Assembly (NCBI GenBank): GCA_027051265.1
Contig: JALTZH010000155.1
Coordinates: 1-9,853, forward strand
Length of the DNA stretch: 9,853 nt
From: an archaeon
Lineage (GTDB): Archaea > Hydrothermarchaeota > Hydrothermarchaeia > JALTZZ01 > JALUTC01
Reading direction: 5' to 3'
This document shows, in pieces, positions 677 through 4,419 of this stretch (the stretch's first letter is position 1; the number at the start of each line of letters is the position of its first letter). The position numbers were made by a program, and so were the translations under genes. The notes beneath the pieces were generated by a model. That model searched no databases. It worked only from the letters and a program-made list of their open reading frames with translations, and was not told the DNA's origin.

Positions 677-1882
677 ATGTTAAAAATTATAATGTTTCTT
701 ATGAAACTTAGTATTTACTCGATATCTTTAAAAAACATAAGTAGGAATTCTTTAAGAACTGTTATAGTAATTTTATCTGCAATATTCATAACATTTATAA
801 TATCGTTTACATTGATTTCCTCCTCATTAATACAGGGTGCAATAAAAAATATGAACGAGAAATTAGGTGCAGATTTAATTGTTATACCAGAAGGTTCGGA
901 AACAGAAACAAACGAGTTCCTCTTTTTGAATGAGCTGAGAACTTTTTATATGAGTAAAAATATATATGAAAAGTTAAAAAATTATGAAGAAATCGATAAG
1001 ATTACATATCAGATATGGCTTGTAACGTTACCTTCACTTTGTTGTGGTGTTGCAGATATAGAGGTTATTGCAATAGATCCAGAAACGGACTTTATAATAA
1101 AACCTTTTCTTGAAAAAAAGTTAGAATTACTTGAAGGAACTGCATATGCTGGATATGAAGCGTGGTTATCGGTTTTGGGTGGAGTAATTGATACGGCTGT
1201 TCTGTACCAAAAGGAATTTAAGATTATAGATAAGCTTGAGAAAACAGGAACAGGTTTGGATTATGCATTATACATTGGGGTTGATGATTTCAGAAAGATT
1301 GCTGAGGAAAATCCTTATATAGAAGCAAAACCTGATCAGATTTCTGTAATATTTATAAAACTTAAGGAAGATGTTGATGAAAACAAAGTTATTGAAAAGA
1401 TTAAAAACGAATTTCCTAATGTTGAAGTATTGAGAAAAAGTGATTTAGGAGAAAATTTAAAGAAAATAATAAGCAGCATATCTTCCTCGTTACTGATTGT
1501 AGCCTTAATAATATTTCCTCTATCACTTCTGGTTATACTTAACTTAACATTTATAACAATTAACGAAAGGAAGAAAGAAATAGGAATTTTAAAAGCTCTT
1601 GGAGCAAATAATTCTTCTATAATAAAGATACTCTTTATAGAAAATTTCTTCATGGTACTGCCTTCAATTTTAATAGGGTTCTCTCTTGCATTAATTCTAT
1701 CGTTATTTTTAATACACAGCTATTTAAAAGCATATCTACCAATTTTAAGTATAACCCATTTATTGGAAACGTTAATAATTTCATCTCTAAGTATCATGAT
1801 AATAATAATTGTTGCGACGATAATTTCTATAAGAAAAATATTTAAAACTGAAACTTTAACTTTGTTAAAAGAGAAAGAATGA
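677..1882 (+). CDS. FtsX/MacB-fold ABC transporter permease with external Cys-Cys motif
   Basis: An integral membrane permease of 401 residues. Hydrophobic segments lie near residues 28-51, 269-294, 322-347 and 362-385. The first and second are separated by an external domain of about 215 residues, the MacB/FtsX topology. NERKKEIGILKALGA (296-310) is the conserved cytoplasmic loop after helix 2. The external domain contains EKLGADLIVIPEGSE (61-75), an FYM (90-92) and SLCCGVADIEVIAIDPETDF (120-139). I recall the CC followed by IDPxTDF from a subgroup of putative ABC permeases found near iron or Fe-S membrane proteins; that link is from memory. Substrate and direction are unknown, and no ATPase gene lies in the window. 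The Rieske gene overlaps its end by 4 bp, so the two are cotranslated. Start is uncertain: residue 9 (ATG at 701) fits the family N-terminus (KLSIYSISLKNISRNSLRT) equally well. Confidence 0.88.
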   Translation: MLKIIMFLMKLSIYSISLKNISRNSLRTVIVILSAIFITFIISFTLISSSLIQGAIKNMNEKLGADLIVIPEGSETETNEFLFLNELRTFYMSKNIYEKLKNYEEIDKITYQIWLVTLPSLCCGVADIEVIAIDPETDFIIKPFLEKKLELLEGTAYAGYEAWLSVLGGVIDTAVLYQKEFKIIDKLEKTGTGLDYALYIGVDDFRKIAEENPYIEAKPDQISVIFIKLKEDVDENKVIEKIKNEFPNVEVLRKSDLGENLKKIISSISSSLLIVALIIFPLSLLVILNLTFITINERKKEIGILKALGANNSSIIKILFIENFFMVLPSILIGFSLALILSLFLIHSYLKAYLPILSITHLLETLIISSLSIMIIIIVATIISIRKIFKTETLTLLKEKE

Positions 1883-2295
1883 ACAGAAGAAAGTTTCTTG
1901 TAAAAATTGCTAATCTAATTTTTATAATTTTTTCTTTAACACTTTTTTCATCACTTTTCAAAAAGAGAGACATATCGCTTGAAGAATTGAGACAAACAGT
2001 TCAATATAGAATCGAATTAGAAGAGATAAAGAGAAAAAAATTTTTGGTTATATATATTAAAAATGATCCAATCTTATTGGTACAATCTAATGATAAGATA
2101 CAAGCACTTCTGTTACGATGTCCTCATAGAGGATGTACGTTGTATTTAGATAGAGAGAGAAAATTGATATCCTGTCCATGTCACGGTTCTTTATTTGATT
2201 TAGATGGAAAAAGATTAAGAGGACCAGCACCAACCGATTTAAGAAAAATAAATTATAAAATCAAAGATAAATTTTTATACATATACTTTACTTAA
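1879..2295 (+). CDS. Small Rieske 2Fe-2S protein with twin-arginine leader
   Basis: A 138-residue protein with one Rieske domain, expected to carry electrons outside the cytoplasmic membrane. The ligand boxes are CPHRGC (81-86) and CPCHGS (99-104): Cys81, His83, Cys99 and His102 bind the cluster, and Cys86 and Cys101 form the usual disulfide. GPAPTDL (115-121) is the proline loop. The N-terminus NRRKFLVK followed by a hydrophobic stretch (residues 10-26) looks like a Tat signal or signal anchor, which agrees with export of a folded cofactor protein. Its ATG overlaps the permease stop as ATGA. No cytochrome b or oxidase gene accompanies it, so a bc-type complex role is not supported here. Function together with the permease is an inference from coupling. 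Confidence 0.93.
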   Translation: MNRRKFLVKIANLIFIIFSLTLFSSLFKKRDISLEELRQTVQYRIELEEIKRKKFLVIYIKNDPILLVQSNDKIQALLLRCPHRGCTLYLDRERKLISCPCHGSLFDLDGKRLRGPAPTDLRKINYKIKDKFLYIYFT

Positions 2296-2309
2296 TTTCT
2301 AAAATATAC

Positions 2310-2319
2310 TTTTTTAAAA
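2310..2319 (+). promoter_or_regulatory. Possible TATA-like box for the DUF362 gene
   Basis: A T-run joined to an A-run (TTTTTAAAAA) is centred about 22-25 bases before ATG 2336/2339. No ribosome site precedes either ATG. The spacing would give a leaderless transcript, common in archaea. The alternative is read-through from the Rieske gene, which ends at 2295. Confidence 0.3.
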
Positions 2320-2335
2320 AATTCCCATAACAATT

Positions 2336-3424
2336 ATGATGGTATATTTTGTATCCTCAAGAGTTAAAAATTACTTGGAATGGTGGCAACCTGATAAGAG
2401 TTTACTAACAAAACTGGAAAAATTATTCTTTGAGGCTGGTTTTGATAAAATCTTAAAGGGCAAGGTTGGAATAAAACTTCATTTTGGAGAATATGGAAAT
2501 GTTCATTATATAAGACCTGTATTTGTTCATAAAATTGTAGAGATATTAAAAGAACTAGATTTAGAACCAGAATTGATTGAAACATGTGGTCTAGGTGCAA
2601 TAAGTAGAAGAAGTACTGCAAAAAAACATCTTGAAGTTGCAAAAAAACACGGATTCTGTGAGCATTGTCTTGGAGTAAAAATAAATATCATAGATGGAGA
2701 ATATGGTCTAGATTTTATCGAATATAAAGGTACTTATATAGCAAAAGGATTAAAAAACTATGACTCATTACTGATAATGTCTCATGTAAAGGGACATGTA
2801 CAAGCTGGTTTTGGAGGTGCTATAAAAAATATAGGTCTTGGATTGGTTGCAAAACCTAGCAAATATTATGTACATTTTGATGGATATCCAAAGATAAACG
2901 ATGATAAATGTATTAAATGTAACTCTTGTATTAAAAGTTGTCCTGTAAATGCTATTGAAAATTATAAGATAATTGAGAACAAATGTCTGAAATGTAATGT
3001 TTGTGTAGATGTTTGTGAAAAAAAAGCAATTGAAGTAAAACCAGTGGATAACATTACACTCAATAAGAGAATTGTAGAGAACGTAAAGAACGTTCTCGAA
3101 TTTTTTGGAAAGGAACATGTAGTTTATATAAATTTTTTGTTAGATATAATTCCACACTGTGATTGTCATCCGTTTTCTGATATTCCAATAGTTCCAGATA
3201 TTGGTATACTGGCATCTAAAGATATCGTTTCAGTAGATAAAGCGTCAATAGATTTAATAAACAATACCTTTGGCATAATTGGAAGCTCTATAAGTTTATC
3301 GAACATTAAGAAAGGGGAAAAGAAATTTATAAACCCAAATACGAATTATGAGATACAGATTGAATATGCCCATAGAATAAAGCTTGGAAATAAAAATTAC
3401 ACATTAAAGATTTTAGAAGAATGA
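2336..3424 (+). CDS. DUF362 protein with two 4Fe-4S ferredoxin motifs
   Basis: A 362-residue cytoplasmic iron-sulfur protein with no leader or membrane segment. It starts with the DUF362 fold: KVGIKLHFGEYGNVHYIRP (43-61), an IETCGL turn (81-86), and SHVKGHVQAGFGGAIKNIGL (149-168). Two clusters follow: Cys192-x2-Cys195-x2-Cys198-x3-Cys202-Pro and Cys217-x2-Cys220-x2-Cys223-x3-Cys227. The C-terminal DUF362 half has HCDCHPFSDIPIVPDIGILA (274-293), with Cys275 and Cys277 as possible extra ligands. No specific reaction is established for this family, so none is assigned; a redox role follows only from the clusters. It lies 40 bp after the Rieske gene on the same strand and may be cotranscribed with it. 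The second codon (ATG at 2339) is an equally possible start. Confidence 0.93.
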   Translation: MMVYFVSSRVKNYLEWWQPDKSLLTKLEKLFFEAGFDKILKGKVGIKLHFGEYGNVHYIRPVFVHKIVEILKELDLEPELIETCGLGAISRRSTAKKHLEVAKKHGFCEHCLGVKINIIDGEYGLDFIEYKGTYIAKGLKNYDSLLIMSHVKGHVQAGFGGAIKNIGLGLVAKPSKYYVHFDGYPKINDDKCIKCNSCIKSCPVNAIENYKIIENKCLKCNVCVDVCEKKAIEVKPVDNITLNKRIVENVKNVLEFFGKEHVVYINFLLDIIPHCDCHPFSDIPIVPDIGILASKDIVSVDKASIDLINNTFGIIGSSISLSNIKKGEKKFINPNTNYEIQIEYAHRIKLGNKNYTLKILEE

Positions 3425-3779: not shown

Positions 3780-3836
3780 TAGGTTGAAGATGCGGTAGAT
3801 TAGAGGTTCGTTGACCTTGATATCTTTTATGTCTTG

Positions 3837-3845
3837 CTTTATAAT
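3837..3845 (+). promoter_or_regulatory. TATA-like box before the vapB remnant
   Basis: CTTTATAAT ends 16 bases before ATG 3862, which would place a transcript start at or close to the ATG (leaderless). No ribosome site is present. Confidence 0.35.
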
Positions 3846-3861
3846 GTTTAACAAATTAATA

Positions 3862-4084
3862 ATGAAATCAACAATTACAATAGATAAGGAACTTAGTAGA
3901 GAGCTTGAGATTTTAAAAGGTTCAAAGACTTGGAATGAATTCTTAAAGGAACTTCTTGTTGTATATAAAGAGTATAAAAACAAAGAAACTTAAAAAAGAG
4001 ATAAAAAAACTCTATGAACTTGTTGATATTGAAAAGGTAAAAAAAGGTTTAAAATTAAGAAGATATGATATTATATTGATATGA
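3862..4084 (+). pseudogene. VapB-type antitoxin remnant (frameshifted)
   Basis: The open part (3862-3993, 43 codons) begins KSTITIDKELSRELEILKG and continues KTWNEFLKELL. This is the ribbon-helix-helix N-terminus typical of short archaeal VapB antitoxins that bind DNA and their toxin. It stops at 3993. The missing toxin-binding tail continues in another frame from about 3983 (KKLKKEIKKLYELVDIEKV) to a TGA at 4084, so one indel near the A-rich stretch 3975-3985 broke the gene. The reconstructed tail would have overlapped the toxin start at 4065, as in intact vapBC operons. The 43-residue product might still fold as a DNA-binding dimer; that is not testable here. Confidence 0.7.
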
Positions 4085-4419
4085 ATATCCTATAGAATAT
4101 TTTAAGAAAAGAGAAATTGAAAAACTCATTGGAAATTCTATCTCAATAATCACTTTAATAGAATTTTTAAGAGGAGCTAAAAATCCAAAGATCGTGAAGA
4201 AAATTTTAGAAGAAATTTATGTTATAAATTTTGGATAATGATATCATTATAAAATATGTAGAAATTTATCAGAAACTTAAAAGAAAAGGAGATATCCTTT
4301 CAGATTCTGATTTATTAATAGCTTCTACATCAATAGCTAAAAATCTACCACTATTAACAAAAAACGTAAAACATTTTAAACGATTGATAAAATTTGGTCT
4401 AAAACTTTTTAAATTATAA
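4065..4419 (+). pseudogene. VapC-type PIN-domain toxin remnant (multiple frameshifts)
   Basis: VapC toxins are PIN-fold Mg-dependent RNases. The pieces lie in order but in different frames. ATG 4065 is followed by an in-frame TGA at 4077. YYIDMNIL, the first-Asp motif (usually DTN), is in frame 1 near 4072-4091. IEYFKKREIEKLIGN and IITLIEFLRGAKNPK run from 4092 to 4235. LDNDIIIKYVEIYQKLKRKG and LSDSDLLIAST run from 4231 to 4419. The acidic residues of the PIN active site (D of IDMN, E of LIEFLRG, D of DSDLL) can all be traced. At least three indels or stops separate them, so no active toxin can be made. Homopolymer sequencing error could explain one lesion but hardly all, because 8 kb of neighbouring genes are clean. 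Confidence 0.75.

Follow-up and report, generated by a model that had tools for sequence, protein, structure and literature searches.

The window analysed here, a stretch of 9,853 nucleotides from contig C155 of a hydrothermarchaeotal genome (1.46 Mb over 257 contigs; an archaeal group of hydrothermal vents), carries three consecutive genes on the + strand that encode, in order, an FtsX/MacB-like (type VII) ABC permease (677..1882), a Rieske [2Fe-2S] protein with a Tat-type signal anchor (1879..2295), and a DUF362 protein with two 4Fe-4S motifs (2336..3424). Contamination was discarded as the source of the contig, as its GC content of 0.29 is in keeping with the 0.30-0.31 found on other contigs of the same genome. 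A divergent argJ gene lies to the left of the permease and runs off the contig end, and because the contig ends inside argJ, no upstream operon partner of the permease is visible. To the right of the three genes, at 3811-4419, a VapB-like antitoxin ORF (a weak match) is followed by a PIN-domain (VapC-like) gene split between two frames, and the two look like a toxin-antitoxin pair that has decayed.

The permease ORF encodes 401 aa and matches the FtsX domain (PF02687, E 2e-17). Its real start is probably the ATG at 701, which is favoured because the family profile begins at 698 and the paralogues align there; a start at 677 would leave only 3 bp between the permease and argJ. An AlphaFold model (mean pLDDT 81.8) resembles MacB, LolCDE, and HrtBA, as does the sequence profile, and the combination of an FtsX domain with a MacB-like fold places the protein among the type VII ABC permeases. 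It shares with MacB, LolCDE, HrtBA, BceAB, and FtsEX the FtsX-like domain and the order of a first transmembrane helix, a large extracytoplasmic domain, and three further helices, but differs from them in its neighbours, in the lack of an adjacent ATPase gene in the window, and in two additional motifs. The first is a vicinal cysteine pair, Cys122-Cys123 (1040..1045, + strand), which the initial annotation had correctly located and regarded as external; the domain that holds it is predicted to be extracytoplasmic, and in the model the pair falls in a flexible loop between strands 98-108 and 121-125 (numbering from 701), with pLDDT under 50 at residues 112-114. The second is the sequence IDPETDF at residues 133-139 (1073..1093, + strand), which reads DPxTDF in most relatives.

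The cysteine pair is invariant in the aligned relatives, bacteria included (13/13 in alignment A2 and 16/16 in alignment A3), and as judged from these alignments it is not a chance occurrence. One permease of the archaeal class lacks both cysteines (L163:7816-9027), and adjoins a PCuAC-like copper chaperone. Permeases in which CC precedes a DPxTDF-like motif were also found in Bacillota, Fibrobacterota, Chloroflexota, Nitrospirota, and Pseudomonadota, and in a set of 297 archaeal relatives, matches with E 1e-60 or better occur only in this class and in one other genome. On the evidence of motif and profile, these CC permeases are a genuine subfamily, present in one archaeal class and in several bacterial phyla. 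At most loci of the subfamily an ATPase gene directly follows the CC permease. The window permease has no adjoining ATPase gene on its truncated contig, and one ATPase gene is found beside its paralogue on contig C85 of the same genome. The two CC permeases are sisters in the tree (support 100/99), a placement by which the window copy is a lineage-specific duplicate. In a relative of the same order (G002), the C-terminal halves of two partner permeases (L054:6481-9284) share identical stretches while their N-terminal halves have diverged, which suggests gene conversion between them.

The permease stop and the Rieske start share an ATGA overlap of 4 bp (1879..1882, + strand), as the initial annotation had observed. 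Its further description of the two genes as fused in translation was too strong, and translational fusion was dropped as an explanation: 4-bp overlaps occur at an ordinary frequency, in 19 of 155 same-strand neighbour pairs of related loci, and the arrangement is not conserved, with 42 bp separating the permease and Rieske genes in G002.

The Rieske protein (138 aa; PF00355, E 4.9e-14) contains both cluster-binding boxes, CPHRGC...CPCH (2119..2184, + strand), with ligands C81/H83 and C99/H102 and disulfide cysteines C86 and C101, as in a Rieske subunit, and its nearest solved structures include b6f and bc1 Rieske proteins. An RRKFL motif at residues 3-7 and a single predicted transmembrane helix at residues 6-24 make up a Tat-type anchor, and the genome encodes TatC, consistent with the Tat export that had been claimed for this protein. 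Menaquinone synthesis (PF02621) and cytochrome c assembly genes are likewise present. The genome has one Rieske match, that of the window, and one cytochrome b match, a 311-residue protein (PF00033) on contig C85, with bis-histidine pairs at His75/89 and His171/186 as in a Rieske partner; of the two spacings, 14 and 15, we take the latter to be b6-type. The initial annotation had stated that no respiratory complex gene accompanies the Rieske gene, which fails on a genome-wide view, for this cytochrome b lies beside the paralogous CC permease; the annotation had itself named pairing of the Rieske gene with a cytochrome b elsewhere as evidence against its proposal, and such a cytochrome b is what C85 provides.

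Rieske and this type of cytochrome b occur together in the host genome (G000) and in G002, G006, G007, G008, G013, and G021; in G001, which is of the same genus and 81% complete, no match to Rieske, cytochrome b, or TatC was found, and in G017 (82% complete) cytochrome b was matched with no Rieske match found. The two genes adjoin each other in G002, G008, and G021, and in the latter two the pair sits beside a ten-heme cytochrome. They lie apart in G006, G007, and G013, and a split pair is therefore not unusual in the class. Because the host genes are on different contigs, their pairing is deduced from their uniqueness in the genome and from the synteny in G002, G008, and G021, and on this basis the window Rieske protein is most likely a subunit of a quinol oxidoreductase with the C85 cytochrome b. 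Ligands, disulfide cysteines, Tat-type anchor, and bis-histidine cytochrome b with b6-type spacing are all shared with bc1/b6f-type systems; the host departs from them in that the two genes are on separate contigs, an ABC permease gene accompanies the Rieske gene, and a multiheme cytochrome of the c type is the apparent acceptor.

The C85 cluster comprises a CC permease, an ATPase, a partner permease lacking CC, a beta-propeller lipoprotein with one CxxCH motif (CKACH, a heme-c beta-propeller), a DsrE-like protein, a membrane-anchored cytochrome c with nine CxxCH motifs, TusA, a Sulf_transp protein, and the cytochrome b. Identification of the propeller as a cytochrome d1 was discarded, as the host copy has no Pfam or PDB match; a bacterial copy is YVTN-like, with only a sub-threshold d1 match. 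The multiheme cytochrome is flanked by DsrE-like (one Pfam-confirmed), TusA, and Sulf_transp proteins (L052:9146-10197, L075:3105-4432), a setting suggestive of sulfur trafficking around it; an earlier paper on the Hydrothermarchaeota group reported no DsrEFH.

The third gene of the window encodes a protein of 362 aa (PF04015, E 8.5e-36, plus Fer4) whose two CxxCxxCxxxC motifs and + strand orientation agree with the initial annotation. Its role as a third component of the system was discarded, as counterparts of the same span in relatives either lie on different contigs or are separated from CC permeases by about 500 kb. The host genome has two DUF362 genes, and that of the window is probably a bystander; it shares PF04015 and the two 4Fe-4S motifs with DUF362 ferredoxin-like proteins and has nothing unusual about it. 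A different DUF362 subfamily, without Fer4, follows clusters of the order CC permease-ATPase-CC permease in G006 and G017 (L170:12400-13458, L159:1496-2554, L160:7034-8089).

How general the permease-Rieske linkage is was judged from 22 CC-permease loci of the class, with pairs counted once, and from 14 bacterial loci. A Rieske gene adjoins the CC permease in the host and in G002, and lies in the same cluster in G008. No Rieske neighbour was seen at 19 of the 22 class loci, some of which are on short contigs of the mostly fragmented assemblies compared, nor at any of the 14 bacterial loci inspected, and in G006, G007, and G013 the Rieske gene is apart from every CC permease. That the two genes directly adjoin in two families of a single order is no coincidence, yet the arrangement is not general. 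In G002 the order is ATPase-permease-CC permease-Rieske-cytochrome b, and in G008 a thioredoxin, a multiheme cytochrome, the Rieske gene, and cytochrome b lie beside a propeller, a CC permease, an ATPase, and a second CC permease, all within ~10 kb. From these gene orders the linkage is therefore inherited, but to a respiratory module and not as a two-protein device. The conserved adjacency that had been suggested as a check gains two further families, one adjacent and one clustered, and does not extend to most of the class or to the bacteria. Similarly, of the proposed redox-coupled envelope system, what survives is that CC permeases recur with extracytoplasmic redox and metal proteins; a dedicated permease-Rieske device does not.

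Repeated neighbours of the CC permeases include sulfur-transport proteins, TusA, rhodanese-like, thioredoxin-like, and cupredoxin-like proteins, and the heme propeller; bacterial loci add DUF4418 or genes for iron uptake, with several of these labels assigned by comparison with exemplars and not by Pfam. PCuAC copper chaperones were found in 5 genomes of the class, and in 4 of them the gene is in or beside a cluster of permeases of the CC subfamily (in one of the 4, without the CC pair), an association whose chance probability, on a crude uniform model, is about 3e-10. NosL adjoins the CC permease in 5 genomes of one genus, and the pairing of an ABC permease and ATPase with NosL and other copper chaperones in these relatives recalls the NosL/NosDFY assembly of copper sites. 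The likeness has its limits, as the window permease is of the FtsX type, whereas NosY is an ABC-2-type permease. Because PCuAC and NosL are both absent from the host genome, the copper link is extrapolated from relatives. In several bacterial phyla DUF4418 lies directly upstream of the CC permease-ATPase pair (L079:8381-10630, L089:2334-4616), and it or a similar small membrane protein is so placed in L080, L081, L091, and L093; DUF4418, CC permease, and ATPase are a conserved three-gene unit in bacteria. In the literature searched, DUF4418 and this permease were found together in one transcriptome table only.

From these homologies, motifs, gene orders, and co-occurrences we infer an envelope respiratory module split over two loci, C155 and C85, of which the window carries two pieces, together with an ABC helper for exported redox proteins, and give this overall reading a probability of roughly 0.7. 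The part of it that concerns the Rieske protein, which would provide the iron-sulfur subunit to a Rieske/cytochrome b complex of the b6 type, has high confidence. The complex would oxidise menaquinol and pass electrons to multiheme cytochromes, a route made probable because cytochrome b shares C85 with the nine-heme cytochrome c. C85 also encodes the other parts of the ABC system, namely its ATPase, its partner permease, and its lipoprotein with the heme-c beta-propeller, and the window permease probably borrows the C85 ATPase. Such a system is most likely a transporter of the mechanotransmission type, which would supply or maintain a metal or thiol/sulfur for redox proteins outside the cytoplasm, the module's own among them. 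The choice of substrate is tentative: copper is the best guess for the metal, with sulfur carriers and iron genes serving equally well as hints.

One alternative holds that the Rieske cluster exchanges electrons directly with Cys122-Cys123, setting the oxidation state of a thiol or metal during transport. The gene overlap, the adjacency in the host and in G002, and the invariance of the cysteines in a predicted extracytoplasmic domain would all fit such coupling. However, CC is kept where there is no Rieske neighbour, in five bacterial phyla and at most class loci, the Rieske protein is already accounted for by cytochrome b, and no thiol-chemistry partner was seen; moreover, a Rieske [2Fe-2S] cluster carries one electron at a time. 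The direct transfer that the initial annotation had envisaged finds no support here and is very improbable. A long shot of a related kind is that CC-DPxTDF permeases make up a widespread, so far undescribed class of ABC transporter and move or reduce copper or thiols at the vicinal cysteines, which the quinol pool of this archaeal order would hold in the reduced state through Rieske/cytochrome b. It is also conceivable that permease and Rieske are independent proteins on one transcript, left as neighbours by the break-up of an ancestral cluster like that of G002, with the ABC system functionally separate from the quinol oxidase. The status of the window permease as a lineage-specific duplicate speaks for this, as does the separation of Rieske and CC permease in G006, G007, and G013, but the clustering of CC permease, propeller, multiheme cytochrome, and Rieske and/or cytochrome b in three families makes it somewhat unlikely.

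Another potential function for the CC-type system is that of an iron-uptake helper, like the FetBCD/SifBCD components of FetMP-FetABCDEF and bfeUO-sifABCDE, in which two FtsX-type permeases and an ATPase also lie beside extracytoplasmic redox proteins (PMC10783030, PMC6083913, PMC5449479). In Catonella a CC permease-ATPase pair is found beside FTR1, P19, and FtrD, and on a Nitrospirota contig such a pair is beside an FtrD-like domain. FetBCD, whose substrate is still open, is required by Campylobacter for growth under iron limitation, and in the proposal of the study's authors periplasmic thioredoxins draw their reducing power from it (PMC10783030); this is the nearest published idea to a redox coupling of permease and Rieske, though without a Rieske protein. 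Against an iron-uptake role, no FTR1, P19, or FtrD was seen at the two host loci, and the two Catonella permeases downstream of FtrD lack CC in the part inspected, so that the CC permeases seem to form a branch of their own. An iron-helper function is quite unlikely compared with a respiratory module served by an ABC helper.

Two genome papers on Hydrothermarchaeota report many c-type cytochromes, and the word Rieske is absent from both. The host described here is a concrete candidate for a menaquinol-to-multiheme-cytochrome route in Hydrothermarchaeota, and the CC permeases make up a sharply defined and testable group of ABC proteins that links copper chaperones, iron uptake, sulfur carriers, and cytochromes.
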